Virus record (IMG/VR): IMGVR_UViG_3300042892_002827
Span: 1-29,336 of that record
DNA from: a virus
Direction: 5' to 3' (one strand)
DNA length: 29,336 bases
In this document: positions 2,038 through 27,742 of the stretch, piece by piece
Numbering within the stretch: the first letter of the stretch is position 1
Layout of the letters: each line of letters starts with the position of its first letter
The notes under the pieces: generated by a model
What the model saw: the letters and a program-made list of their open reading frames with translations, nothing else
What the model was told of the DNA's origin: nothing
The model's database searches: none
Program-made: the position numbers and the translations under genes

Positions 2038-2322
2038 ATGCCAGCAGTACAACGAGATGGTGATGCAAATGGCGCAGGGGGAGTGGTCTCTGGCGGTGTT
2101 GCATCTGTGCGTGTGAATGGCAGTCCAGTTACTGTGAACGGTAATCCTGTGAGTGCCCATGCACCTTGGGCTCGTCGTCAACATCCACCACATGCGGCTG
2201 CAAGCACCACAGGCGGCAATGGCTCTGTGAGAGCCGGCGGCGTTCCTGTTGTTACTACTGGATGTTCAGACACCTGTGGACACGCTCGTGCTGGTGGTAG
2301 TGCTGATGTAAGGGCAGGATAA
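2038..2322 (+). CDS. PAAR-motif tail spike tip protein
   Basis: The 94-aa protein is glycine, alanine and valine rich. It has repeated G-x-V-x-V-N-G-x-P strands (VRVNGSPVTVNGNPVSAH) and His/Cys residues near the middle and end (SAHAPW, PPHAA, CSDTCGHARAGG), as in PAAR proteins. These fold into a small zinc-binding cone that caps the spike of contractile tails (T4 gp5.4) and of type VI secretion systems. The stop codon overlaps the next start (TAATG), so the 679-aa neighbour is translationally coupled and is probably a tail or baseplate partner. This gene is a direct indicator of a contractile-tailed phage. Confidence 0.9.
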   Translation: MPAVQRDGDANGAGGVVSGGVASVRVNGSPVTVNGNPVSAHAPWARRQHPPHAAASTTGGNGSVRAGGVPVVTTGCSDTCGHARAGGSADVRAG

Positions 2323-4361
2323 TGCCCAGTATTCTCAGCCCACTACAATTGACTGCGTCTGTTGCCTTGTTGCAGAATCAAGGACTAAAATCTTTTCCAG
2401 CCGCTTTGGCCACTGCTATCCAGTCTTTTAATGCCACCACAGTGATCAGCAATTTTCTTGCGGCAGTGAGTTTTTACAAAGCACAGTCGTTTGCCACCGA
2501 ATCCACGCTGACCAGTTTGTTGACTATTGGGTCTAGTGTGTGCCCGGCCCTGGGCAACAGTATACCTGAAACACCTTTGGGAAGCTATCCTTACTTAGAT
2601 AGCGAATACCTCATCGACTATCTTGGTGCTGTAGATGGCAGTACCATTGACCCATCAGGATTTTCAAATCTAATAGAACAAACTTGTGCGGCCTATCTTG
2701 GCAACGGTGATGCTGGTCAATTCGGTCAAGGTTTTGTGGCTGTGCAAGGCTATATTGCCAGCACCAATCAGTATATCAACAGTTCAGTAAATGTCAACCA
2801 GTATCTTGGACCCTTGTTTACTAACATGGACAATTTGGTAACAGCCAACATAGCCAGTATGACTACAGACTTGCCTAATTTTGGAGTTGACCTGGCCAAC
2901 CAAGGCAACTTGTGGAACATGGGCAAGTTGGATTTGTATGGCACTCCTGCTGGACTCTTACAACAAATATCTGCATTGGCCGGCATCCGAGGACGCACAG
3001 TGCCTGATTTACAAAATGCCTTGATCAGTATGGGGCTGTCGGCTACCAACATTGCTGACCTAGTGAATGACAATCGTGTGGGCTTGAACAATCCCACTGG
3101 CCTCACACAAAACGAATTTGATAAACTACAATTGCTGGCGTATAGTGCTACTACCATGATCTCAGGAGATGCGTTAACACAGATCTTGGACATACTGGGA
3201 GTGACCACTCCCAACATCAACAGTCTTGATGACTTGTTGAATCCTGTGATCATGTTTCCATTGAGTTATGCTTCTTTGCAAACTCCCAGTCCTGACGGCG
3301 CTGTGCCTATTTTTGATTCAACTGGTGCAGTAAATTCCAGCATCACCGCAATAGTCAACAGTTACTTGCCCACAGCGTCGGGTTGTGATGAACTGGGCAA
3401 GATAATTCCACCTGCACAGGCCACTGCCAATAAAGCCATACAGGTAGCCTTTCAACAAATCAACAACATACCTGTCACTACTCTACCACGGTTGGCCGAC
3501 GCAGTATTAGGCAATATTGATAATCCCTGGAACGCGACACAACCATATCTGGCCAATGCTGTTGTGGCCAATGGTGATCCTGTGCCCTCTTACTATCGTG
3601 CCACAGATGATGTACCTGCTGGCACAGACATCAACAACACTGCCTACTGGACACCAACAACATTGGGTGGTCTTAGCACCATGGCCGACTTGCCATTGAT
3701 TGAAGCACAGACCACACCAGTGGATAGTTCAGTTACTGATTATATTTCAACCACTATGGCCACAGGCACAGGACCCAACGGTACTGTTACCACGTATGAT
3801 GTACTTGGTTTAGCATTAGACACAGACGATTTTGCTACTAGACTTATTGACGTGGCTGATATTATTGACGGTCTTGGCACCGGCCTAGATGATCTATCTC
3901 AAATCTACATTGATATGTTGAGTTCAGCAAACGATGCTGCCATGATCACACTCATTGCTAGTGCTAATGCAGAAATAGCAAGTATCAGTTCGGTACATCC
4001 TGCTCAAGTGACCACATTGAATACCGATTGGGTCTACATGGCCAATCTCATGAACTTGAGTGCCAAGTACACTACTGAGGCTGGTATTGACTATTTCCTC
4101 TTGCAACCCGGTGATAAGAATAGTGTGTACTCGTTTGTACAAAACTTGCCCAATTACGGACTACTCACAGCAGAAGGCGATGCGGCTGAGTTTTTAGAGA
4201 ACATCGCCGATACCACAACCCTGGGTGGACAAGCCATTGTGGGTGTGATGCGTGAAGGTCGCAACAATGCAAGATTGAGCACGGCTGGCCTGTACAATAC
4301 TAATCAAATACCCAGCAACCCAGAGATAGCACCAATTCCGGTGATCGATCCAGTTACTTGA
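2322..4361 (+). CDS. Probable virion structural protein (tail/baseplate), 679 aa
   Basis: I cannot assign this large protein to a named family. It is rich in Ala, Thr, Ser and Asn, low in Cys and has no signal peptide, a composition typical of phage structural proteins. It is coupled to the PAAR gene through TAATG. Residues about 401-445 contain spaced aromatic and glycine residues (PWN..., then Y, NGDPVPSYYRA, AYW). This pattern resembles the small carbohydrate-binding modules (CBM5/12 type) inserted into phage adhesins. The C-terminus is proline rich. A role in tail-tip assembly or surface-glycan contact is an inference from position and this segment. It is followed by a promoter region and a change of gene theme. 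Confidence 0.72.
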   Translation: MPSILSPLQLTASVALLQNQGLKSFPAALATAIQSFNATTVISNFLAAVSFYKAQSFATESTLTSLLTIGSSVCPALGNSIPETPLGSYPYLDSEYLIDYLGAVDGSTIDPSGFSNLIEQTCAAYLGNGDAGQFGQGFVAVQGYIASTNQYINSSVNVNQYLGPLFTNMDNLVTANIASMTTDLPNFGVDLANQGNLWNMGKLDLYGTPAGLLQQISALAGIRGRTVPDLQNALISMGLSATNIADLVNDNRVGLNNPTGLTQNEFDKLQLLAYSATTMISGDALTQILDILGVTTPNINSLDDLLNPVIMFPLSYASLQTPSPDGAVPIFDSTGAVNSSITAIVNSYLPTASGCDELGKIIPPAQATANKAIQVAFQQINNIPVTTLPRLADAVLGNIDNPWNATQPYLANAVVANGDPVPSYYRATDDVPAGTDINNTAYWTPTTLGGLSTMADLPLIEAQTTPVDSSVTDYISTTMATGTGPNGTVTTYDVLGLALDTDDFATRLIDVADIIDGLGTGLDDLSQIYIDMLSSANDAAMITLIASANAEIASISSVHPAQVTTLNTDWVYMANLMNLSAKYTTEAGIDYFLLQPGDKNSVYSFVQNLPNYGLLTAEGDAAEFLENIADTTTLGGQAIVGVMREGRNNARLSTAGLYNTNQIPSNPEIAPIPVIDPVT

Positions 4362-4392: not shown

Positions 4393-4421
4393 TTGACTTA
4401 GTACAAATACGCATATATAAT
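4393..4421 (+). promoter_or_regulatory. Strong sigma70 promoter for the porin gene
   Basis: TTGACT at 4393-4398 and a perfect TATAAT at 4416-4421 are separated by 17 bases, close to the host housekeeping consensus. Transcription should start near 4428, giving a leader of about 37 bases before the porin ATG. This isolates porin expression from the upstream tail genes. Confidence 0.85.
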
Positions 4422-4425
4422 ATGT

Positions 4426-4441
4426 AATGACTCGCGTCATT
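4426..4441 (+). promoter_or_regulatory. 5'-terminal mRNA hairpin or operator of the porin transcript
   Basis: AATGAC (4426-4431) and GTCATT (4436-4441) are perfect inverted arms around TCGC, located exactly at the predicted transcription start. It may act as a stabilising 5' stem-loop or as a repressor site overlapping +1. Similar hairpins sit at the predicted starts of the hsp20, clpS and phasin transcripts. Confidence 0.6.
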
Positions 4442-4464
4442 CTACTTTTAAAAGGATAAACTAA

Positions 4465-5562
4465 ATGAAGAAAATCTTCGCAATCATGATTGCACTTGCG
4501 GCCACCTCTGTGTTTGCTCAAAGTGCTGTCAACATCACTGGCTTGGTTGATACCGGCCTGTTGTTCACCAATGCAGCCACTGGTGTCAATACCAAAGGTC
4601 TTGCTGCCAGTAATTCAGCCACCACAGTGCTGACCATTGGCGGCACAGAGGATCTAGGCGGCGGACTCCGTGCCAACTTCCGACTGCAACTCACACCAGA
4701 TTTTATCAATGGTGCCGGAGTTGAAGGAACCTCATACAACTCAACCACAGCAGGCACTGTGGGCCTAGGTCAAGAAGCCTTTATCGGCACAGAAGCCAAC
4801 TGGGGCACTGTGAAACTTGGTCGTGTGAATTCCAACATCCTGGATGCCTGGGGCAACGGATCTGTGTTTGGTACAGCCATTGGATCAGGTTATGGTTCAA
4901 ACGGCAACATCTTGACAAGATATAGTGCCACAGCAACTCACACAGCACAAACAGCACCAACACGTTTCAATGGAGCCATTCGTTATGAGTCTCCAGCAGT
5001 GGCAGGTGTAAGTGGTTCTTATTTGTATGTGCCACCAAGTGCCAGCGTCAATGCTCAGAGTGTGGTTGACTATGGTGTGAAATATGTGAATGGTCCCGTG
5101 AGTGTGCAGTATGCCTCTCAGCGTATCGAACAGTCAGGCACTTTGGCCACTACCACTGCATCATTCATTGCCACTGGTTCACAGGCCTTGACTGATGGTA
5201 CCAACAACACTCTCAGCATGTTGTCGGCCAACTACAAGATTGGTGCCGCAACTGTGTATGGTGGTCGTTGGACAGAAAAACAAAACACAGCCACCGCTAT
5301 CGACCAGACTGGACAAATGTTTGGTGCCAAGTACACCGTTGGTGCTACAAGCATCATGTGGTCAACTGGTTCTAGCAACGAAAAGAGCACAGCCAATGTA
5401 GACAAGAAAATTCTTGGCTACGGTGTGGATCATGCGCTCAGCAAGAGAACCAACTTGTATGCACGTTTTGACACTCGTGATGCTGACACCAACACAGCAG
5501 GTGCTACTTCCACTGCTGGTGTAACAAAGCGCACCGCAGTTGGCTTACGTCACACGTTCTAA
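4465..5562 (+). CDS. Outer-membrane general porin, Burkholderiales type
   Basis: The 365-aa product has a Sec signal peptide (MKKIFAIMIALAATSVFA, cleavage predicted after residue 18). A mature chain follows with the beta-barrel pattern of betaproteobacterial trimeric porins: VNITGLVDTGL at the start, LTIGGTEDLGGGLRANFRLQ, the GTVKLGR strand, YGVDHALSKRTNLYARFDTRD near the end and the closing strand GLRHTF. The terminal phenylalanine is the signal for BAM-mediated insertion. The length fits the gram-negative porin family. It has its own promoter, 5' hairpin, AAAGGA ribosome binding site and terminator, so it is an independent cargo gene. Why a phage carries it is unknown. Candidate roles are altering nutrient permeability or replacing the receptor porin to block superinfection. 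Confidence 0.93.
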   Translation: MKKIFAIMIALAATSVFAQSAVNITGLVDTGLLFTNAATGVNTKGLAASNSATTVLTIGGTEDLGGGLRANFRLQLTPDFINGAGVEGTSYNSTTAGTVGLGQEAFIGTEANWGTVKLGRVNSNILDAWGNGSVFGTAIGSGYGSNGNILTRYSATATHTAQTAPTRFNGAIRYESPAVAGVSGSYLYVPPSASVNAQSVVDYGVKYVNGPVSVQYASQRIEQSGTLATTTASFIATGSQALTDGTNNTLSMLSANYKIGAATVYGGRWTEKQNTATAIDQTGQMFGAKYTVGATSIMWSTGSSNEKSTANVDKKILGYGVDHALSKRTNLYARFDTRDADTNTAGATSTAGVTKRTAVGLRHTF

Positions 5563-5576
5563 TACCAAAGTATTAC
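5560..5576 (+). repeat. 17-base repeat starting at the porin stop codon (copy 1)
   Basis: TAATACCAAAGTATTAC begins with the TAA stop. It is a short inverted repeat (TAATAC / GTATTA) and is identical to 28445-28461, which begins with the stop codon of the phasin-like gene. A second inverted pair, AGTATTACT and AGTAATACT, follows up to about 5595. Confidence 0.85.
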
Positions 5577-5604
5577 TGATCAAAAAGTAATACTCAAGTA
5601 CTAC

Positions 5605-5636
5605 AAAAGCCCTGCAAGTTTGCGGGGCTTTTTTTT
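5605..5636 (+). terminator. Rho-independent terminator after the porin
   Basis: AAGCCC(T)GCAA pairs with TTGC(G)GGGCTT around a two-base GT centre, followed by an eight-base T run. It directly precedes the next promoter. Confidence 0.92.
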
Positions 5637-5638
5637 GG

Positions 5639-5667
5639 TTGACCAATAATTGCCCTTTTGCTATAAT
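5639..5667 (+). promoter_or_regulatory. Sigma70 promoter, TTGACC-17-TATAAT with extended -10
   Basis: TTGACC (5639-5644) and TATAAT (5662-5667) are spaced by 17 bases, with TGC before the -10 hexamer (extended -10). An ATG begins exactly seven bases after the last T, the expected transcription start. The element is nearly identical to 28495-28523. Confidence 0.85.
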
Positions 5668-8478: not shown

Positions 8479-8706
8479 ATGACAGCACGATCAGCCAATG
8501 GTGTTCGTGGACACTTGTTAAATTTTATAGACGGAACTGTGGTGTTTCGTGTGTATGATGCTGAACATAACTTTGTGGACTACAACATACATCACAGTGA
8601 CTTGTGCGTCACAATTGACGATCCAGATGCATATTTTTATAACCGAGATGGCCAAGAGATATTAGATCATGCACCTATGACATTGGGGATGACAGATGAT
8701 AATTGA
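8479..8706 (+). CDS. Hypothetical phage protein, 75 aa
   Basis: A 75-aa acidic protein with alternating beta pattern (HLLNFIDGTVVFRVYDAEHNFVDYNIHHSDLCVTI), followed by a loop rich in Asp and Tyr. It resembles small uncharacterised proteins of T4-like phages with an FRVYD...DY.I.HSDL pattern. No function is assigned. Its 3' end overlaps the next small gene by 11 bases. Confidence 0.78.
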   Translation: MTARSANGVRGHLLNFIDGTVVFRVYDAEHNFVDYNIHHSDLCVTIDDPDAYFYNRDGQEILDHAPMTLGMTDDN

Positions 8707-8815
8707 AATATTTTTATACGGCTTTATCACAGCCTTTGGTTGGTGGACTGCTACACACTATGTGATTGAACCACACTTTCCGCCGCCTATTGAAAAGAAA
8801 GCAGAACAAAAATGA
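8696..8815 (+). CDS. Small single-pass membrane protein, 39 aa
   Basis: ATG 8696 opens a 39-aa frame. A hydrophobic aromatic helix (IIEIFLYGFITAFGWWTATHYV) leads into a proline-rich stretch (EPHFPPPIEKK) and a basic end. GGGG lies about ten bases upstream. It overlaps both neighbours (11 bases upstream, ATGA downstream), the packing expected of a real operon gene. Its role is unknown. A small inner-membrane protein is the only supported statement. Confidence 0.75.
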   Translation: MIIEIFLYGFITAFGWWTATHYVIEPHFPPPIEKKAEQK

Positions 8816-9818: not shown

Positions 9819-11024
9819 ATGGCCACCATTGAAGAACAAAAAAAACTCATTGAAGTTCTGAAATTTACGCCAAGAACCTACAAAGTCAGCCTATGGGGTT
9901 ATGGCGGTGAAAAGGTCATGGGCACCGTAGATCGGAAAGTCTGGGACTATTGCATGGCCAACCAAGTTGACTTGTCGGACATTGCCTGGGGCGATGAGGA
10001 TACTGTGGCCAGCATGGGACTTGATCCTGACATGTTGCCGTTCTCTGCAGGGTCGTGGTATGAATGTGATGACCTAGCACACGTTAATGGTACAAGTCGC
10101 GATGCAGGTACGCTACAGATTGAAGATGAAAATCTCAATACAGTTTTTGCAAAAAGCCTAGAGGAATGTGACAATGACGAGGAAGACAACCCCAAATGGG
10201 CATGTGGAGAAACAGTATGGGTTGGTCAGATCAAACCTGGCAAGGTAGTGTTTGTTGGAAATTCAAATGAAAAAGGCACGTTCTTTGAAGGACATATTGA
10301 ACTTACGCAACCATTCGACATTACCAAACTAACTCTGTGCTACGATGACATTGACAGTGAAGAAATTGTCAATGGCGTACAATACGATGGTGAAGACATT
10401 GACAACTGGGGCGGTAGCACAGACGGCAAGAGTTCGGACTTTACCATGTGCAGGATCAAAAAGGGTGGTGATTGGGAACGCTATGAACCCAAAGAAAAAG
10501 ACTGGGGACATCCTCCACATGGAACCAGTCCCAGTAGATGGGAACAGACAGAAACATTTAAGTTTAAGAAACTAAAACCTACTATTCCAGGTTACTATAG
10601 TGTGAACTGGGGTGGCGGTAGTTCCTTTGGCAGTTTGTACTGGAACGGCACTGCATTTGGTGACTGGGAATATGGCAAGTTCAATCCTGTGCGTCAAGAA
10701 GGTGTCAAGTGCTGGAGTGGCTATAGCTGGGACACAAGTGACTGGGCCAACCAACCTCCAGAACCTGTAGATGTCAGTTGTGATAATAAAAAATGCGGTT
10801 GGGTCGGACACGGTGAACAGCGCAGACGTGATGATGAGTACAACGATTATTGCCCCGAATGTAATGGCACAGAGTTTACCTGGATTGATTATGATCCCAA
10901 TACAGCACTGGGACGCAAGAATCGTGCTAAGTATTGTTTGGAGTGGGATCCAGCAGTGGCACTAGAACACATTGTAGTGCCTGCAAACAATGTACGGGCC
11001 AGGTGGCCAACCAACAGACCTTAA
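9819..11024 (+). CDS. Large hypothetical protein with C-terminal zinc ribbon
   Basis: The 401-aa protein is acidic and rich in Trp, Gly and Asp. Residues about 20-50 and 255-310 have repeated aromatic-glycine strands (YKVSLWGYGGEK, YYSVNWGGGSSFGSLYWNG), suggesting beta-sandwich parts. Near the C-terminus four cysteines, C321-x4-C326 and C345-x2-C348, form a probable zinc ribbon. The family is not recognised and the function is unknown. A role in nucleic-acid binding is only suggested by the ribbon. A YccA-like gene follows after 11 bases. Confidence 0.8.
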   Translation: MATIEEQKKLIEVLKFTPRTYKVSLWGYGGEKVMGTVDRKVWDYCMANQVDLSDIAWGDEDTVASMGLDPDMLPFSAGSWYECDDLAHVNGTSRDAGTLQIEDENLNTVFAKSLEECDNDEEDNPKWACGETVWVGQIKPGKVVFVGNSNEKGTFFEGHIELTQPFDITKLTLCYDDIDSEEIVNGVQYDGEDIDNWGGSTDGKSSDFTMCRIKKGGDWERYEPKEKDWGHPPHGTSPSRWEQTETFKFKKLKPTIPGYYSVNWGGGSSFGSLYWNGTAFGDWEYGKFNPVRQEGVKCWSGYSWDTSDWANQPPEPVDVSCDNKKCGWVGHGEQRRRDDEYNDYCPECNGTEFTWIDYDPNTALGRKNRAKYCLEWDPAVALEHIVVPANNVRARWPTNRP

Positions 11025-11035
11025 AGGAGAAAACT

Positions 11036-11725
11036 ATGAATGATACACTTATTTTTAATGATGAACAATACCGTTCAGCAGAACAAATCAACTCGGCCAT
11101 GGGCCGTGTTTACGGACACATGAGTCTAGCAGTGATTGTGAGTATGCTGGTCAGTTACTGGGTGGGAACCACACCAGAGTTGCTACAATTGTTTTTCACA
11201 GGCATAACAAAATGGATTGTGATTTTTGCCCCGCTTGTGGCAATCTTTGGCATTTCTGCGGTACTGGCTAACAATCCCAGCAAGGGCGTGGCACAGTTAT
11301 GCTTGCATGGCTTTGCCGCTCTGATGGGTCTAAGTTTTGCCACCATCTTTGCCATATTCACCATGGGCAGTATAGTATCCGCATTTATGGGTGCGGGTGT
11401 GCTGTTTGGTGTCATGAGTTTTTATGGATACTTTACCAAACGTAGCCTAGACAGTGTTGGCAAGTTTATGTTTGTGGGATTGATCGCCATCTGTATTGCC
11501 AGTATTGTGAACATCTTTATTGGCAGCACCGTGATGCAGATGGTGATCTCTGCACTGGCTATCATTATCTTCTTGGGTCTCACTGCCTATGACACACAAC
11601 GGATCCGTGAAATGGTCAGTGTTGAAACTAGCGATGCAGTTGAGGTGTCGGGTGCGTTGACCTTGTACATGGACTTTATCAACTTGTTCTTGAACTTGTT
11701 GCAATTGTTTGGCGATAGGAAATAA
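11036..11725 (+). CDS. BAX inhibitor-1 / YccA-like integral membrane protein
   Basis: The start is taken at ATG 11036, behind AAAGGAG. The open frame extends upstream but without support. The 229-aa protein has about seven hydrophobic helices and the family marks: FGISAVLANNPS..., GLTAYDTQRI near the end, and a LTLYMDFINLFLNLLQLFG final helix with a basic tail. These belong to the UPF0005/TMBIM family (E. coli YccA, YbhL). YccA binds and inhibits the FtsH membrane protease, so a phage copy may protect membrane or phage proteins from FtsH. That role is an inference. Confidence 0.93.
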   Translation: MNDTLIFNDEQYRSAEQINSAMGRVYGHMSLAVIVSMLVSYWVGTTPELLQLFFTGITKWIVIFAPLVAIFGISAVLANNPSKGVAQLCLHGFAALMGLSFATIFAIFTMGSIVSAFMGAGVLFGVMSFYGYFTKRSLDSVGKFMFVGLIAICIASIVNIFIGSTVMQMVISALAIIIFLGLTAYDTQRIREMVSVETSDAVEVSGALTLYMDFINLFLNLLQLFGDRK

Positions 11726-12666: not shown

Positions 12667-14172
12667 ATGATATTTGGTTTCAGCATCCTGGCCACAGCAA
12701 TCTTACTCAGTTGCGTGGCCGCTTATTACTCTGTAGCAGGGTTAACTGCCATCTTCAGCGCGGCAACTATTCCTGTGATCATCATGGGCGGTAGTCTTGA
12801 ACTTGGCAAAATCGTTGCCACGGTTTGGTTGCACAACAACTGGAAACGTGCAGGGTTCTTGTTCAAGGCATATCTAGTACCTGCGGTCATGTTCTTGATG
12901 CTGTTGACAAGCATGGGCATCTTTGGCTACCTTTCCAAGGCCCACTCAGATCAAAGTCTAGTATCTGGAGACTCAATAGCAAAGGTAGCAATCTACGATG
13001 AAAAGATCAAAATATCTCGTGACAATATTGATGCCAACCGCAAAGCACTTAAACAGATGGATGAGGCAGTGGATCAAGTTATGGGCCGAAGCCAAGATGA
13101 AAAAGGTGCCGACAAAGCAGTTGCAATCCGAAGAGGCCAGCAAAAAGAACGGGCTAGGATACTTGTTGACATTGAAGCCGAACAGAAAAAAATTACTAGC
13201 CTTAATGAAGAGCGGGCACCACTAGCGGCCGAGTTCCGCAAGGTTGAGTCGGAAGTTGGTCCAATCAAATACATTGCGGCCTTGATCTATGGAGATAACC
13301 CTGACTCAAATGTACTAGAACGTGCTGTGCGTCTTGTTATTATCATGATTGTGCTGGTGTTTGACCCACTGGCCTTGACACTAATTCTGGCAGCAAACAA
13401 ACAATTCCAATGGGCCAGAGAAGGCACAGGCGGATTTATACATGATGAGCCCCGGTATGAACCCGATGATGGTCCACTAACTGAAGACCAAGTTGATCAA
13501 CTTGACAAATCTGCACAAGCATTTCGGGCGGACCCACATCCGTCAGGTTGGATGTTTGAAAAATTCCCGTACCTCACTGCCGGCAAAGAAATGTTTTTTA
13601 AAGACACACCTCCAATGGTGGCTCGGCCAGATAACGACCAAGCAGCCATGAACATTGTTGCAGAACCGCCTGGGGTAGAAACACGTCCATTTACAGCTGA
13701 AGAATTAGAGGCATTGGAGTCTGCGGACTTGGAAGAAGATTTTGACGAAGATGATGACACACTCAAGACTGCTATTACAAAATGGAAAGCGGCAAATCCC
13801 AACGATACTTTAAAAAATCAACGTTATAAATTCATACGCGGCGAAATCTCTCAGTTGCCTTGGATGGGTCTATTGGCTGATAATGAATCGAGAAAAGAAA
13901 TAAAAAGCGGATTTGGCACACAGTTTCCATCACATGCTGAACGAGGAGATACCTTTGTAAGAGTTGACCGTCTACCCAGCATGGTCTATAAGTACAATGG
14001 TAAAGACTGGATGGAAGTTGACAAAAATCTAACAGACAGTTATACTTACGATATTGCTTATATTGATCACTTGATAGAACGCATTGCATCTGGTGAATAC
14101 GATGCTGAACTATTGAGCGAAACTGAACAAGAGCAAGTGGCCCAACGTTTACAATCAAATACAAACACATGA
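12667..14172 (+). CDS. Four-helix phage membrane protein with coiled coil and soluble tail, 501 aa
   Basis: Three N-terminal hydrophobic helices (about residues 4-27, 29-50 and 70-92) are followed by a charged coiled coil (about 100-195, DEKIKISRDNIDANRKALKQMDEAV...). A fourth helix (about 219-245, IIMIVLVFDPLALTLILA) and a 250-residue acidic soluble tail follow. The tail ends in a conserved-looking module (GDTFVRVDRLPSMVYKYNGKDWMEVD, then YTYDIAYIDHLIERI). Similar membrane proteins are recurrent in aquatic T4-like phages, but their role is not known. A structural or envelope-remodelling function is a guess. ClpX begins inside its stop (ATGA). Confidence 0.82.
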   Translation: MIFGFSILATAILLSCVAAYYSVAGLTAIFSAATIPVIIMGGSLELGKIVATVWLHNNWKRAGFLFKAYLVPAVMFLMLLTSMGIFGYLSKAHSDQSLVSGDSIAKVAIYDEKIKISRDNIDANRKALKQMDEAVDQVMGRSQDEKGADKAVAIRRGQQKERARILVDIEAEQKKITSLNEERAPLAAEFRKVESEVGPIKYIAALIYGDNPDSNVLERAVRLVIIMIVLVFDPLALTLILAANKQFQWAREGTGGFIHDEPRYEPDDGPLTEDQVDQLDKSAQAFRADPHPSGWMFEKFPYLTAGKEMFFKDTPPMVARPDNDQAAMNIVAEPPGVETRPFTAEELEALESADLEEDFDEDDDTLKTAITKWKAANPNDTLKNQRYKFIRGEISQLPWMGLLADNESRKEIKSGFGTQFPSHAERGDTFVRVDRLPSMVYKYNGKDWMEVDKNLTDSYTYDIAYIDHLIERIASGEYDAELLSETEQEQVAQRLQSNTNT

Positions 14173-15383
14173 AATCAACTGAACAAATCACAACTTGCAG
14201 TTTTTGCGCAAAACACAAAGACGCCGTGGCCAAATTAATAGTAGGAGAAGATGTTGCTATTTGTAATGAGTGTGTGGAATTGTGTGAAACTTTGCTAAAA
14301 GATGAAAACATCACCAGCCAGGTTAGTCCTGTTGTGATGGATCCTGAACACATAAAAAAACATTTAGATCAATATGTGATTGGTCAAGATCGTGCCAAAC
14401 AAGTGCTTAGTGTGGCAGTTGTAAATCACTACAAACGTATTACCAACCCCAACCCAGACATAGAAGTTGAGAAATGTAATATTCTTATGCTTGGCCCCAC
14501 AGGCTCGGGCAAAACACTGCTGGCCAAAACTGTGGCACGTTACTTGGATGTACCGTTTGTGATTGCAGATGCCACCAGTCTGACCGAAGCAGGATATGTT
14601 GGTGATGATGTTGAGAGTTTGATATCCAGATTGTTTGCTGCCGCTGGCGGCGATGTTGCTAAAACACAGCGTGGTATTGTGTTCATTGATGAAATTGACA
14701 AGATCAGCCGGCGCAGTGAGAGTGCCAGTATCACCAGAGATGTATCAGGAGAAGGTGTACAGCAGGCCTTGCTCAAACTGGTAGAAGGCACCAAGTGCAG
14801 AGTCACTCCCACAGGTAATCGCAAGCACCCGACAGGAGAGATGATTGAGATTGATACCACCAACATCTTGTTTATTGCTGGTGGTGCGTTTGTTGGTCTA
14901 GACAACGTAGTGAAGAATCGTGTGCGCGGAACTTCAATTGGGTTTGGTGCTCAGGTAAATTCAGATACCAACGCTCATCTTGATCAAACCACACCTGAAG
15001 ACTTGATAAAGTTTGGTATGATTCCTGAGTTTGTGGGTCGTTTTCCTAGCTGGGTAGCATTGCAAGAACTTGATAAAGAAGATCTAATACGTATTTTGTT
15101 GGATGTCAAACACAGTTATATTGCACAGTATTCATGGTTGTTTGAGCAAGATCAAGTGGAGCTGGAATTTAGCCCTGACGCTTTGGAAACAATTGCAGAT
15201 CGCACTATTTTGAACAAAACTGGTGCCAGAGGCCTACATTCTGAACTTGAACGTGTGTTATTGCCCCATATGTTCTATTTGGCCAGTTATCGCAAGCAAG
15301 GAATAAACCGTGTATATATTGACGCAGATCAGGTAAATACCCCTACAGAACTAAAGGAAGCAAATGGAAAAGCTAAGGGGTAG
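14169..15383 (+). CDS. clpX: ClpX, AAA+ unfoldase of ClpXP
   Basis: The 404-aa protein is close to full bacterial length. It has the N-terminal zinc-binding domain (C10, C13, C32, C35), Walker A GPTGSGKT (109-116) and Walker B VFIDEID (171-177). The GYVG pore loop (142-145), RKH loop (218-220), arginine finger in EFVGRFP and sensor-2 GARGL are also present. The IGF tripeptide (257-259) that docks into ClpP is kept, so it should pair with host ClpP because no clpP is present here. It unfolds tagged proteins for degradation and may redirect host proteolysis. It is coupled upstream by ATGA, overlaps rpsU by 20 bases, and lies near hsp20 and clpS. Confidence 0.97.
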
Positions 15384-15588
15384 ATCAGTACTGGTCACAG
15401 ACGGCAACATAGACAAAGCACTACGCAAATTCAAAAAGAAAATTCAAACGTCAGGCATTTTAGACGATGTGCGAGCCAAAGAATTCTACGAAAAACCCAC
15501 AACCGAACGCAAACGCAAAAAGTCAGCGGCTGCTAATCGTTGGCGCAAAAAACTAGCCGAACAGGCTTTGCCAAAGAAACTTTATTGA
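15364..15588 (+). CDS. rpsU: 30S ribosomal protein bS21
   Basis: The 74-aa basic protein carries the bS21 pattern: [20 protein letters not shown], then [22 protein letters not shown] and a basic end. bS21 sits at the decoding-side platform near the anti-Shine-Dalgarno of 16S rRNA and takes part in initiation. Phage-borne bS21 is known from marine and huge phages and is thought to favour phage mRNA translation. The gene starts within the end of clpX behind AAAGGA. This genome appears to have leaderless genes, which makes a phage-specific initiation factor of this kind notable. Confidence 0.93.
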
Positions 15589-15603
15589 TAATAAATTTTC
15601 GTG

Positions 15604-15614
15604 TATAATAAATA
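15604..15614 (+). promoter_or_regulatory. hsp20 promoter: TATAAT fused to AATAAATA
   Basis: TATAAT (15604-15609) overlaps a late-type AATAAATA (15607-15614). The -35 region is poor (TTTATT at 15581-15586 with 17-base spacing). Both an early and a late start are possible here. Confidence 0.6.
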
Positions 15615-15618
15615 AACA

Positions 15619-15642
15619 TGTAGTGCCCATGGTGGGGCTACA
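15619..15642 (+). promoter_or_regulatory. 5' hairpin of the hsp20 transcript
   Basis: TGTAG and CTACA form the base and CCC pairs with GGG above, with one bulge. The hairpin starts about three bases after the predicted +1 and ends 37 bases before the ATG. It could stabilise the mRNA, or sense temperature as heat-shock leaders do, though the ribosome binding site AAAGGAG lies outside the stem. Confidence 0.5.
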
Positions 15643-15679
15643 CTAAACGTCATACTTGCTTATATAAAGGAGAAAACAA

Positions 15680-16138
15680 ATGACAAAAACTCTCACCCTT
15701 CGTTCTTTCGACATTCCCGCACTTCACAAATTTGGTATCGGTTTCGATAACATGTTTGATGATCTCATGCGTGTGAGTACTCAACAATCCAATTCAAACT
15801 ATCCACCTTACAACATTGTACAAATCAATGACGACGAGTACATGATTGCTGTGGCAGTGGCCGGTTTTGGCCACGATAATCTTTCAGTGACCAAGGACAA
15901 AAAGTTCTTGATTATTGAAGGTAAACACGCCGCAGAGAATGTAGAAGTCGAAGATCCCACTGCCATTTATTTGCACAAAGGCATTAGTGAAAGAAGTTTC
16001 CGCAGAGAATTCCAACTTGCGGATCATGTGGAAATCAGCAATGCACATCTTGAACTTGGTATTCTAAGTGTTCACTTGCGACGTGAAGTACCTGAAGACG
16101 CCAAGCCAAAGACTATTGCTATCACATACACTTCGTAA
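15680..16138 (+). CDS. Hsp20 / IbpA-like small heat-shock protein
   Basis: The 152-aa protein has a short N-terminal arm with FDNMFDDLMR, then an alpha-crystallin domain (about 44-135): YNIVQINDDEYMIAVAVAGFGHDNLSV, KKFLIIEGKH, then LHKGISERSFRREFQLADHVEI and the LELGILSVHLRREVPE strand carrying the conserved I/L-S-V/I end motif. It is a holdase that keeps misfolded proteins soluble. Hsp20 is common in T4-like aquatic phages and may aid capsid assembly. It has its own promoter and leader, and clpS follows under another promoter. Confidence 0.95.
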   Translation: MTKTLTLRSFDIPALHKFGIGFDNMFDDLMRVSTQQSNSNYPPYNIVQINDDEYMIAVAVAGFGHDNLSVTKDKKFLIIEGKHAAENVEVEDPTAIYLHKGISERSFRREFQLADHVEISNAHLELGILSVHLRREVPEDAKPKTIAITYTS

Positions 16139-18994: not shown

Positions 18995-20233
18995 ATGAAG
19001 AAAATTGGATTTATTGGTATCGGCAAACTGGGGCTTGAATGTGCCGAAGTTATGGCAGAAAAGCACGAAGTGCGCGGTTACGATATTTACCCACGTGTCA
19101 GCAACTCAGTAAAAGTTTGTGATATTGATGAATTGGTCAATGAAAGCGAATGGATTTTTATTGCTGTGCCTACTCCACATGCTGAGGGCTATGATGGCTC
19201 GGTACCTAGCTCACACATGGAGCCCAGAGACTTTGGACATGACGCTGTGATTAGTGCTATCGCCAATGTCAACCGGTACGCAAAATCATCAAAGAAGGTT
19301 GTGTTAATTTCCACAGTATTGCCGGGAACCACACGCCGCAAGTTTTTCCCACTATTAGATAAACAACATCAGTTTTTGTACAATCCTTATTTGATTGCCA
19401 TGGGCTCGGTCAAGTGGGACATGGTCAATCCTGAAATGGTCATGATTGGTACCGAAGATGGCAATCCCAATGCTTTAGCAGCCGAACTGATTGATTTGTA
19501 CAAGACCATGATGGTAAACGATCCCAGGTATGAGATTGGTACCTGGGACGAATGTGAAGCAATGAAGATATTCTACAACACATTTATTTCAGCCAAGGTA
19601 GGCCTTGTGAACATGATTCAAGACTTTGCGCTGAAGATTGGCAATATCAATGTTGACGTTGTAACAGATGCCCTGGCACGAAGCACCATGCGTATCATGG
19701 GCCCCAAGTACATGACTGCGGGCATGGGCGATGCAGGTGCATGCCATCCACGTGACAACATTGCACTGCGTTGGTTGGCCAAAGAATACGACATTGGCTA
19801 CGACTTTTTTGACACAGTGATGCATGCTAGAGAAATGCAAGCCCGAAATCTTGCCATGTTCCTGGTTGACCAAGCCAAACAACACGGCATGAGTATTGTG
19901 ATTCACGGCAAGGCCTACAAACCTGATGTTGAATATTGTATTGGATCATACTCTACGCTGGTGGGACATTATGTCAAACAAGCAGGACATGATGTGAGAT
20001 ATCTTGATCCCTTGGCAGATGATCCTGCTGAAGTTATTACAGAACTAACCGGTCCTGCGGTCATCCTTTGGGCACACAATCGCAAGATCACTTATGAGTA
20101 CACCGGTGATCAACCGGACACATTGCCGTATTACCCAATTCCACATGGTAGTGTGGTGGTTGATCCATGGCGTAAACTCCCACAGATTGAGAACTTGACT
20201 GTGGTACATTATGGCAACACACGAAATTCTTAA
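18995..20233 (+). CDS. UDP-glucose/GDP-mannose dehydrogenase family protein
   Basis: The 412-aa protein starts with a Rossmann NAD motif (GFIGIGKLGLE, residues 5-15). The AVPTP segment follows at 57-61. The helix with K191 and N195 (KIFYNTFISAK) and the catalytic cysteine C250 in DAGACHPRDN come next. A C-terminal domain ends with ILWAHNRK. It should oxidise the C6 hydroxyl of a nucleotide sugar to a uronic acid. Its length and order match the family. It forms an overlapping run with the oxygenase-like and amidinotransferase genes. Its start abuts that of the divergent glycosyltransferase-like gene in the hexamer CATATG. Confidence 0.9.
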   Translation: MKKIGFIGIGKLGLECAEVMAEKHEVRGYDIYPRVSNSVKVCDIDELVNESEWIFIAVPTPHAEGYDGSVPSSHMEPRDFGHDAVISAIANVNRYAKSSKKVVLISTVLPGTTRRKFFPLLDKQHQFLYNPYLIAMGSVKWDMVNPEMVMIGTEDGNPNALAAELIDLYKTMMVNDPRYEIGTWDECEAMKIFYNTFISAKVGLVNMIQDFALKIGNINVDVVTDALARSTMRIMGPKYMTAGMGDAGACHPRDNIALRWLAKEYDIGYDFFDTVMHAREMQARNLAMFLVDQAKQHGMSIVIHGKAYKPDVEYCIGSYSTLVGHYVKQAGHDVRYLDPLADDPAEVITELTGPAVILWAHNRKITYEYTGDQPDTLPYYPIPHGSVVVDPWRKLPQIENLTVVHYGNTRNS

Positions 20234-21643: not shown

Positions 21644-21668
21644 CCATTAATTTCAAATGCTGTATAAT
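21640..21668 (+). promoter_or_regulatory. Sigma70 promoter of uvdE, TTGACC-17-TATAAT
   Basis: TTGACC (21640-21645) overlaps the previous stop. TATAAT is at 21663-21668. The ATG at 21675 begins exactly six bases after the hexamer, as in the 5639 and 28495 promoters. Confidence 0.85.
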
Positions 21669-21674
21669 TACAGC

Positions 21675-22706
21675 ATGACTACACCTCGAATTGGCTTTTG
21701 TTGCAAATGGCTTAATGATCCCTCAGAAACAGGGGGTATGAAAGTCAATGCAAAGGACCGTGAATTAAACGGCAGATCAACTACCATGAGGTGGCTTCGC
21801 GAACACAAAGACGAAGCGGAACAACGTCAGTGGGACATCATGAATCACAATACCACAGCCGCAGTCAAGATGATTGAGCGTGTGGCCACATTACCCAAAG
21901 GCAGACGCATGGTACGCCTGGGCAGTGAAATGCTACAAGGCTACACTGAGAAAGATTGGATTGATTGGTGGCAACGAACAGAGATCCAAGATCACTGTGA
22001 GAAGATATTTGCTCCTGTAGGTGAAACAGCAAGACGTCTTGGTGTGCGACTGAGTTTTCATCCTGGACAGTTTTGTGTGCTGGCCAGTGAGAGCGACGAG
22101 ATTGTAGAACGCAGTGTGTTAGAGTTTGAATATCATGCAGACATGGCTCGTTGGATGGGCTATGGTGCCACATGGCACGATTCGGGATTTAAAATTAATG
22201 TGCATTTATCGGGTCGAGGTGGTCCCGCTAAATTCCTGAAGACCTTGGGTCGCCTCACTCCAGAGGCCAGGAATCTGATAACCATCGAGAATGATGAGAT
22301 GACAAATGGATTGGACACTACTTTGGCTGTGGCTCAGCATGTGGCTCTTGTGTTGGATGTACACCACCACTGGATCAACACGGGCGAATACATCGAACCG
22401 CAGGACGTTCGTACAAGTCGGGTTGTTGACAGCTGGCGCGGCGTTCGCCCTGCAATGCATTTTAGTACTAGTCGCGAAGATATTCTGGTCGACCATGATC
22501 CAGGAGTTCGACCAGACCTTGCTGAACTTCTTGCTAGAGGTTATAAAAAGCAGAAGCTCCGGGCACACAGTGACTTCTGTTGGAATCACGCTGTGAACGC
22601 ATGGGCACTGGGCTTTCGTGATCAGTTTGATATACAAGTAGAAGCCAAGGGCAAAAATTTGGCCAGTGAACAACTTTATGAACAATATATTTCTCAACAT
22701 CTTTGA
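21675..22706 (+). CDS. uvdE: UV-damage endonuclease UvdE/UvsE
   Basis: The start is set at ATG 21675 (MTTPRIGFCCKWLND) because the -10 box covers the upstream in-frame ATG 21657. The 343-aa TIM-barrel enzyme nicks 5' to UV photoproducts in an excision pathway. Family marks are RIGFCCKW, LSFHPGQFCVL, TIENDE, LDVHHHWIN, MHFSTSR and HSDFCWNHA, which supply the His, Glu and Asp metal ligands. It would repair phage DNA in sunlit water. The mRNA is predicted leaderless. Its end overlaps the next membrane gene. Confidence 0.94.
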   Translation: MTTPRIGFCCKWLNDPSETGGMKVNAKDRELNGRSTTMRWLREHKDEAEQRQWDIMNHNTTAAVKMIERVATLPKGRRMVRLGSEMLQGYTEKDWIDWWQRTEIQDHCEKIFAPVGETARRLGVRLSFHPGQFCVLASESDEIVERSVLEFEYHADMARWMGYGATWHDSGFKINVHLSGRGGPAKFLKTLGRLTPEARNLITIENDEMTNGLDTTLAVAQHVALVLDVHHHWINTGEYIEPQDVRTSRVVDSWRGVRPAMHFSTSREDILVDHDPGVRPDLAELLARGYKKQKLRAHSDFCWNHAVNAWALGFRDQFDIQVEAKGKNLASEQLYEQYISQHL

Positions 22707-23017: not shown

Positions 23018-24022
23018 GTGAAACAATTATTTGCAATCTTACTAACAGCAATATCAATCTCAGCATCAGCACAGACCATAACAGGTGCTGGTGCAACATT
23101 CCCATACCCTATCTATTCCAAGTGGTCAGAACTTTACAACCGAGAAACTGGCGTGGCGCTCAACTATCAATCAATTGGCTCCAGTGGCGGCATTCGTCAA
23201 ATTGATGCCCGTACAGTGACCTTTGGTGCAACTGATGCACCTGTGCCAGGCGACAAACTAGACAAGAACGGTCAAGTACAATTCCCTGCCATCATCGGCG
23301 GCACAGTTCCTATTGTGAACTTGGATGGATTTAAACCTGGAGAGTTGCGTATTACAGGTCCTGTAATGGCAGAAGTGTTCTTGGGTGAAATCTCCAAATG
23401 GAATGATCCAAAACTGGTGGCACTCAATCCAGGCAAGAAGTTACCAGATACATTAATTACTATTGTACATCGTGCAGATGGTTCAGGAACCACATTTAAC
23501 TGGACAGACTATTTGTCATCTACCAGTGCCAAGTGGGCTGATAAGGTTGGCAAGGGTGCCGCAGTCAAATGGCCAGCTGCCTCATCAGTAGGTGGCAAAG
23601 GCAATGAAGGTGTTGCGGCTAATGTACAGCGAGTGAAAGGCTCAATAGGCTATGTTGAATATGCTTATGTTAAAAAGAACAACTTGACTTTCTTGCAGTT
23701 ACAAAACAAGTCGGGCAAATATGTCAGTCCAGATGATCTAACATTTGCGGCAGCCGCGGCCGGTGCTGATTGGTTCTCAGTCCCTGGTATGGGTGTGAGC
23801 ATTGTGGATCAACGGGGTGATGCAGTATGGCCTGTAAGCACAGCCAGTTTTATCATCATGTACAAAGATCCCACAGACAAGAAAGCCAGCCAAGACACAT
23901 TGAAGTTCTTTGATTGGGCATTCAAGAACGGTAAAAAAGCCGCAGAGGAATTGGACTATGTTGCACTACCAGACAGTTTGACTAAACAAATTCGCGAGCG
24001 GGTTTGGAGTCAGATCAAGTGA
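23018..24022 (+). CDS. pstS: Periplasmic phosphate-binding protein PstS
   Basis: GTG start with AAGGAG at 23004-23009. The 334-aa protein has a Sec signal peptide (about 18 residues, ending ISASA) and the PstS core: ITGAGATFPYPIYSKW, NYQSIGSSGGIRQI, FGATDAPVP and HRADGSGTTFNWTDYL. These include the Ser, Asp and Arg residues that bind phosphate. It would feed the host PstCAB transporter. Phage pstS is known from cyanophages, where host PhoB controls it. Here a candidate Pho box precedes it. A small gene follows with GTGA overlap, then a terminator. Confidence 0.96.
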   Translation: MKQLFAILLTAISISASAQTITGAGATFPYPIYSKWSELYNRETGVALNYQSIGSSGGIRQIDARTVTFGATDAPVPGDKLDKNGQVQFPAIIGGTVPIVNLDGFKPGELRITGPVMAEVFLGEISKWNDPKLVALNPGKKLPDTLITIVHRADGSGTTFNWTDYLSSTSAKWADKVGKGAAVKWPAASSVGGKGNEGVAANVQRVKGSIGYVEYAYVKKNNLTFLQLQNKSGKYVSPDDLTFAAAAAGADWFSVPGMGVSIVDQRGDAVWPVSTASFIIMYKDPTDKKASQDTLKFFDWAFKNGKKAAEELDYVALPDSLTKQIRERVWSQIK

Positions 24023-27034: not shown

Positions 27035-27742
27035 CTAATTCCGGCGAAGCCTAGCAAGCCCTAGCATTCTAAACAAACCAAGCCACATCCAGCCTATATC
27101 AAACTCCCACCACTTTTTAGAGAGGCGGGCACTCGCTGGGTCCAAGTGGTGGTTGTTGTGCAACTCTTCACCGCCAACGACAATACCCCAAGGCACAATA
27201 TTACGACTATGATCTTTAGTTTTGCCATTTCTATATCCAATCCAATGTCCAACGCCGTTTATGACCCCGGCAGCCCAGAAAGGTATCCATATCATCTGGA
27301 TGCCCCAGATAACCGGACCCCACCATCCAAACACCAAGACGTCTAGCACAAAGAGAATGCCAATGCCAAGTCTAGAGTGAGGCTGGTATACGTGAAGCTC
27401 CATCCAATCAACAGGAGTACCACGACCGTATGTATCAACCATAGTTTTATCTTTTGATGCTGCATGATATAACACTGCTCCTTTAAACAACACATGCCAA
27501 ATACCGTACACGTGAGGGGTATGCGGATCACCTTCCACATCACTGTATCTGTGATGCTTGCGATGTATGGCCACCCATTGTCGGGTTACCATGCCTGTTG
27601 TGAGCCACAGCCAGGCACGCATGAAATGTTCAAGGATAGGATGAAACTCTATGCCCTTGTGAGCCTGGCCACGATGCAAATACAATGTGACACAGATGAT
27701 AGTAATGTGTGTCATTACCAGTGTTGCTATTAATTCTGTCAT
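27035..27742 (-). CDS. Fatty-acid (acyl-CoA delta-9 type) desaturase
   Basis: The 235-aa membrane enzyme carries three histidine boxes: HRGQAH (23-28), HRKHH (60-64) and HNNHH near residue 196. They lie between hydrophobic segments as in membrane desaturases with a diiron centre. It inserts a cis double bond in acyl chains, so the phage may raise membrane fluidity. The gene lies on the minus strand. Its ATG follows a TTAAATA by four bases and directly after the terminator of the next gene, so the mRNA is leaderless by prediction. Electron donors must come from the host. Confidence 0.93.
   Translation of the reverse strand: MTELIATLVMTHITIICVTLYLHRGQAHKGIEFHPILEHFMRAWLWLTTGMVTRQWVAIHRKHHRYSDVEGDPHTPHVYGIWHVLFKGAVLYHAASKDKTMVDTYGRGTPVDWMELHVYQPHSRLGIGILFVLDVLVFGWWGPVIWGIQMIWIPFWAAGVINGVGHWIGYRNGKTKDHSRNIVPWGIVVGGEELHNNHHLDPASARLSKKWWEFDIGWMWLGLFRMLGLARLRRN

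Follow-up and report, generated by a model that had tools for sequence, protein, structure and literature searches.

A complete host-type porin at a phage locus where outer-membrane barrel candidates are exchanged beside a probable tail gene

The porin gene and its surroundings

The DNA considered here, referred to as the window (the whole stretch that was analysed, 29,336 nucleotides), is a 29.3-kb linear virus record. On its plus strand it carries a porin gene with a promoter before it and a terminator behind it, in a position referred to below as the slot. The features of this region are the following.

2038-2322, plus strand: small PAAR-like protein, upstream (phrog_281 'PAAR motif', E 7.6e-8)
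2322-4361, plus strand: probable tail or virion protein of 679 aa, judged from its PAAR neighbour; fixed left neighbour of the slot
4393-4421, plus strand: sigma70-type slot promoter TTGACT-N17-TATAAT (-35 at 4393-4398, 17 nt, -10 at 4416-4421)
4427-4440, plus strand: inverted repeat ATGACTCGCGTCAT (ATGAC-TCGC-GTCAT), near the expected 5' end of the transcript
4447-5638, plus strand: mobile cassette of ribosome-binding site (RBS), porin ORF and terminator (94.3% nucleotide identity to L010/G005, flanks unalignable)
4465-5562, plus strand: porin gene, 365 aa, PF13609 outer-membrane porin, terminal Phe
4465-4518, plus strand: signal peptide MKKIFAIMIALAATSVFA, judged by eye from the sequence, with putative cleavage before Q19
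5605-5638, plus strand: intrinsic terminator, a 12-pair stem (5605-5632) plus T-run
5639-5667, plus strand: promoter of the next unit, from the promoter scan; right border of the slot, remaining in the empty site L184

The porin of 365 residues begins with MKKIFAIMIALAATSVFAQ and ends in Phe; on inspection by eye its N-terminus (MKKIFAIMIALAATSVFA, then Q) resembles a Sec signal peptide, and the start MKKIFAI is common to this protein and to slot proteins of about 180 aa. The match to Pfam Porin_4 (PF13609) has an E-value of 2.9e-32 and 113.1 bits; it lies above the curated cut-off of 27 across the whole domain, residues 8-342 being aligned with profile positions 4-309 of 310. A sequence search of the PDB returned PorB (E 1.9e-7) and Omp32 (E 2.6e-7). 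The AlphaFold2 (AF2) model has a mean pLDDT of 75, with 17 strand segments, long low-confidence loops and an eyelet region that is likewise of low confidence, and its top Foldseek match was Omp32 (1e54, E 1.6e-20, TM 0.79 by target length). No match to the window porin was found in INPHARED, PA-2 included, in PHROG or with the Ail/Lom Pfam model. A sequence-only reading of this DNA had proposed a complete porin, and by sequence and predicted fold the ORF is confirmed as a real, complete, host-type porin on a phage contig. The same reading had named two findings that would speak against it. The first, a best match to a tail protein, was ruled out, since the best matches in Pfam, in the PDB sequence search and in Foldseek are all porins. 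The second, a host contig, was ruled out together with an assembly error, as the same arrangement recurs on many viral contigs from different assemblies and a phage-type DNA polymerase, ligase, ClpX and PstS surround the gene.

The phage-type genes of the window comprise those for ribonucleotide reductase, ATP-dependent ligase, a ClpX-like ATPase, a DnaE-like polymerase, a PstS-like protein and UvdE. The best match of the polymerase among annotated phages is to an uncultured phage of 484 kb (37%). Relatives found via ClpX lie on contigs of up to 349 kb, and hence the source is probably a very large phage. No tyrosine integrase was found in 17 long relatives, which are fragmentary records, with a control positive in 14 of 14 cases; the lineage looks virulent as far as such fragments go, which argues against lysogenic fitness as the reason for the slot.

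Other genes of the window were recorded as well. Among them are a Bax inhibitor-1 family membrane protein (10934-11725, plus strand; PF01027, E 1.4e-52; no PHROG match), a UDP-glucose dehydrogenase-like gene (18995-20233, plus strand), the UV-endonuclease gene UvdE (21657-22706, plus strand) and, on the opposite (minus) strand, a fatty-acid desaturase-like protein (27035-27742; PF00487, 43 bits). The ClpX-like ATPase (14169-16138, plus strand) has a zinc finger and lies near an Hsp20 small heat-shock protein, and the two may form a phage protein quality-control pair. The PstS-like phosphate-binding protein (23018-24022, plus strand) reaches only 50% identity in G003, against 80-90% for most of its neighbours, and its gene may therefore also be an exchanged one. 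An ORF of about 39 aa with one hydrophobic segment (MIIEIFLYGF..; 8696-8801 in the window, 9164-9269 in L010) shows 87-90% nucleotide identity between otherwise diverged phages; the copy in G005 is some 0.8 kb upstream of the porin.

The slot promoter of the window matches the consensus at 11 of 12 positions. Five exact TTGACY-N17-TATAAT sites are present in the window, where 0.01 would be expected, and the next two downstream of the porin begin at 5639 and 5796; this stretch of the genome is therefore a series of small units that have promoters of host type. The inverted repeat could be an RNA hairpin or an operator. The leader folded by itself gives nothing out of the ordinary (z -0.63), but relatives of slot classes A-F (defined below) keep the repeat at this place, in weaker form in L132, while the distant L139 lacks it; the stem of the repeat is conserved and its loop variable, which says little. 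The RBS lies at about 4450-4456, and the terminator has a predicted energy of -18.3 kcal/mol (z -3.7). The near-consensus promoter, 5' inverted repeat and strong terminator of the proposed self-contained unit are thus all present. The porin had also been placed between tail genes and early-type genes. It does lie after the 679-aa gene and ahead of a DNA ligase and small genes that have promoters of their own; the term tail gene is probable only, since the 679-aa gene had no match in Pfam, PHROG or the PDB and is assigned from its PAAR neighbour, whose own Pfam PAAR score (19.3 bits) is below the cut-off of 27.

Occupants of the slot, their origins and their exchange

The 679-aa protein was aligned with relatives (20 sequences, 56-91% identity to that of the window), and homologues down to about 30% identity still precede an outer-membrane protein. 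In nearly all close relatives the slot protein starts about 80-120 nt past the stop of the 679-aa gene. Where the tail protein is at least 60% identical, the slot is occupied in 48 of 50 loci, not dereplicated and with some contigs near copies, by a protein with an MKK/signal-type start and a terminal Phe; 27 distinct slot proteins occur among 52 loci. They were sorted into classes named by length: A (365 aa, the window), B (386 aa) and G-J (293-309 aa), and the small classes C (about 179-186 aa), F (182 aa) and E (149 aa). The Porin_4 cut-off is passed by A, B and the three G-J proteins scanned. One C-group protein reaches 25.7 bits against this cut-off of 27, and another matches only a generic barrel model (E 0.02). 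For a class C protein of about 180 aa the model (pLDDT 85) shows ten strands and is similar in structure to KdgM/NanC and to designed ten-strand barrels. Class E comes to 22.8 bits with YfaZ, where the cut-off is 23; class F has no Pfam match and may be counted as a barrel from its 30% similarity to class C. Eight slot proteins gave no Ail/Lom Pfam match at E 0.1, and searches of INPHARED and PHROG with a 179-aa slot protein gave no match.

A clade whose tails are about 50% identical has nothing in the slot. L184 shows the empty site: terminator and next promoter come straight after the tail gene, with no barrel. The window porin has the make-up of a moron, a self-contained unit that has a promoter and a terminator and lies between genes which, as L184 shows with its retained terminator and next promoter, can also be neighbours. 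G019 and G050 have no slot protein and carry a porin elsewhere in the record. In the more distant L109-L112, in which the tail gene is split, a porin of another Porin_4 family (373-384 aa) lies at a different place and adjoins a glutamine-amidotransferase-like gene. A contig search with a single porin sequence gave no match; an alignment-based search did.

Across classes A-F (the distant L139 apart) the promoter matches the consensus at 11 or 12 of 12 positions whatever protein follows, and the leader belongs to the slot and not to the window porin. The leaders of classes G-J have other promoters, with 10-11 matches. In the loci read, slot proteins are followed by a G+C-rich terminator-like hairpin with a T-run and usually by another TTGACC..TATAAT promoter. 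In the leaders of L165, L169, L181, L364 and L377, just past the tail gene, ATAAATACT-like motifs were seen that recall T4-type late promoters; should these be genuine, some of the slots would have late expression too.

As had been suggested for this porin, a protein search and a phylogeny against Burkholderiales porins were made. In this quick tree, which has long branches, Limnohabitans porins are the sister group of class A (SH-aLRT 98), class B falls elsewhere among Burkholderiales with a deep placement that is unsure, and G-J, joined by two porins that related phages encode at other positions, make up a phage-only clade (support 100). The porin genes in the slot accordingly go back to three origins or more, the small proteins not counted. 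Porin matches were present in 89 of 399 Burkholderiales genomes, and the best identity of class A to any bacterial porin was 37%; this rules out recent capture from a sampled host, so class A would be either old in phages or derived from an unsampled host. Among 300 Burkholderiales the 149-aa slot protein had one, weak, match and the 179-aa protein none, the latter in a search run without a positive control. As far as its porin indicates, the phage probably infects a freshwater betaproteobacterium related to Limnohabitans.

Place and promoter of the slot remain the same, and its content is what is exchanged. Across the 45 rows of the tail-gene tree the slot class changes 14 times, where 6 changes would be the minimum. 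Slot class differs even between near-sisters: the tails of L152 (class A, 365 aa) and L154 (class C, 180 aa) are 93% identical, and their leaders and terminators are near-identical; the proteins between them differ. Synonymous divergence (dS) between the window and L175 is 0.357 for the porin versus 1.49 for the tail gene.

The borders of what moves were indicated by two comparisons. G005 is 94.3% identical to the window over exactly 4447-5638 and no further, the flanks being unalignable; its promoter region differs and contains another hairpin, its other proteins are mostly 45-80% identical to those of the window and rearranged, and no copy of the tail gene was found in this record, which may be a fragment. 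The slot protein of L377 is that of L154 (dN 0, dS 0.164), with 95.2% nucleotide identity over 583 nt, from 19 nt before the ORF to just past it, despite a tail that is only 31% identical. The mobile unit is thus the RBS and ORF with the following hairpin region, and it may have moved by homologous exchange within the similar RBS/signal-peptide and terminator ends. The view of the porin as an autonomous unit with its own promoter therefore needs to be divided: the unit is self-contained and the promoter is there, but the same promoter serves other proteins and so belongs to the slot, and the part that moves lacks it.

Possible roles of the slot protein

Values of dN/dS are 0.04-0.14 for class A and about 0.1-0.2 for C and E among the small classes; ratios this low, indicating purifying selection, show that the slot proteins are used. 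Passive cargo, that is, a host porin gene picked up by chance and without a role, can be set aside almost entirely, common as related porins are in Burkholderiales, given dN/dS of about 0.1, the conserved promoter and terminator, the high occupancy and the repeated replacement by other barrels. The low ratios within a class are not the pattern of a surface diversifying in an arms race, which is a point against the explanation favoured below, as is the empty slot in the clade with tails of about 50% identity; variation comes by replacement of whole genes instead.

The explanation that we favour is that a large, virulent-type freshwater phage keeps an 'outer-membrane slot' beside its probable tail gene. 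Transcription of the barrel gene in the slot would start from the strong host-type promoter, and the protein would take the Sec route and become inserted in the outer membrane of the host. It would there alter the surface of the infected cell, by displacing or masking a host receptor, so that further phages, of its own kind or rivals, adsorb less well, which would amount to superinfection exclusion or receptor camouflage. Several unrelated barrels would have been recruited, and, since rivals and receptors vary, phages would trade the barrel alleles in the form of RBS-ORF-terminator cassettes. Surface remodelling is favoured from the neighbouring probable adsorption gene, as with lambda lom by J, and from the precedent of T5 Llp. 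With moderate confidence, the slot protein is proposed to remodel the outer membrane, with superinfection exclusion or receptor camouflage as the most likely purpose; for the window porin, blocking superinfection is the best guess at its putative function.

A role in envelope maintenance or lysis is the alternative that survives best, and we consider it unlikely. Any abundant barrel might stabilise, load or weaken the outer membrane over the long infection by a very large phage, by occupying the barrel-assembly machinery, by envelope stress or through vesicles, and the identity of the protein would hardly matter. This would account for the swapping of unrelated proteins of 149 to 386 aa under one promoter; however, purifying selection in each class and whole-allele exchange over long distances suggest that sequence matters, and no lysis gene was recognised beside the slot.

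It had further been suggested that the porin might help phosphate uptake alongside the phage PstS. As an auxiliary metabolic gene it would admit phosphate or other anions and work with the PstS-like protein encoded at 23018-24022, and its structural relative Omp32 is indeed an anion-selective porin. The PstS-like gene, however, is about 18 kb away in another unit, and in many relatives, close ones included, the same place and the same slot promoter serve proteins of 149-186 aa, one of them modelled with 10 strands. That barrels of such different size replace one another speaks against one shared channel task, and uptake of phosphate or another nutrient is not supported as the common role of the slot; as an explanation it is rather improbable. 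In this way the natural replacements (porins, a 10-strand barrel, 149-aa proteins) separate the hypotheses and make import of a single nutrient unlikely as the main role.

A component of the virion, with the barrel in or on the particle or acting as a chaperone for the neighbouring tail protein, is more doubtful still. The fixed position after the same probable tail gene, down to about 30% identity, would fit it, and certain genes near tail spikes that were annotated as 'outer membrane' have been reinterpreted as parts of the virion (PMC12309495). The signal-type N-terminus, the terminal Phe and the real porin fold point to the outer membrane instead; moreover, slot classes differ where the tail proteins are still 93% identical, and G005 has the porin in a record, possibly a fragment, in which the tail gene was not found.

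Returning to surface remodelling, the locus might be described as 'coat-changing', with one expression site, kept by very large virulent phages beside a probable adsorption gene, at which one of several unrelated barrels is expressed and the barrels are traded as cassettes that define exclusion groups; this is put forward tentatively. If it is true, co-infecting phages would fall into exclusion groups, much as temperate phages fall into immunity groups. Should the slot set which later phages adsorb, virulent phages would possess in it a modular exclusion system, and it would be a marker predicting co-infection partners in freshwater bacterioplankton.

Comparison with known systems

Phage-borne porins have usually been noted singly and labelled as lysogenic conversion or metabolic genes. 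The literature accessible to us, mostly outside subscription journals, contained no description of a slot swapping unrelated barrels in a virulent-type lineage, no paper on Limnohabitans phages with porins and none with the phrase 'phage-encoded porin'.

The porins of PA-2 (Lc) and of OmpC/NmpC-like lambdoid phages resemble the window porin in being host-type porins encoded by a phage, and 42 phage records, PA-2 lc (J02580.1) among them, match E. coli OmpC. Lc changes the porins of the lysogen and its adsorption of phages. These are temperate coliphages, with porins about 65% identical to E. coli OmpC, and no interchange of unrelated barrels was seen among them; in phage 3W, the single record of this type that was read, the porin lies between holin/lysozyme and Q and not by a tail gene. 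The window porin, with no INPHARED match and no integrase in the 17 long relatives, is not of this type. Another parallel is gp042 of the marine Pelagibacter phage HTVC008M (NC_020484.1), annotated 'outer membrane porin', a porin-like gene in the baseplate/tail region with a signal-type start and a terminal Phe; 58 viral loci encode it or a relative. It belongs to a different phage lineage, is about 26% identical to a slot protein (E 0.02) and, as far as seen, is the one family at its place.

The lom gene of lambda, which encodes the Lom barrel, is the immediate neighbour of the tail host-specificity gene J, with tail spike and tail fibres on either side (PMC12309495). An outer-membrane barrel by a tail gene is common to both, but no scanned slot protein matches the Ail/Lom Pfam model, and Lom is expressed in lysogens. 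Llp of T5 is an early-expressed outer-membrane superinfection-exclusion factor, from which it follows that virulent phages do spend early expression on this task (PMC9586334); it differs in being a small periplasm-facing lipoprotein that blocks FhuA and not a barrel. On the bacterial side, Omp32 has the closest solved fold and the Limnohabitans porins are the closest sequences (37%), but these genes are bacterial, and the distance is too great for the porin to have been captured recently from a sampled host. Phage-borne porins as such are known (PA-2 lc, HTVC008M), and the allele-swapping slot is the new part.
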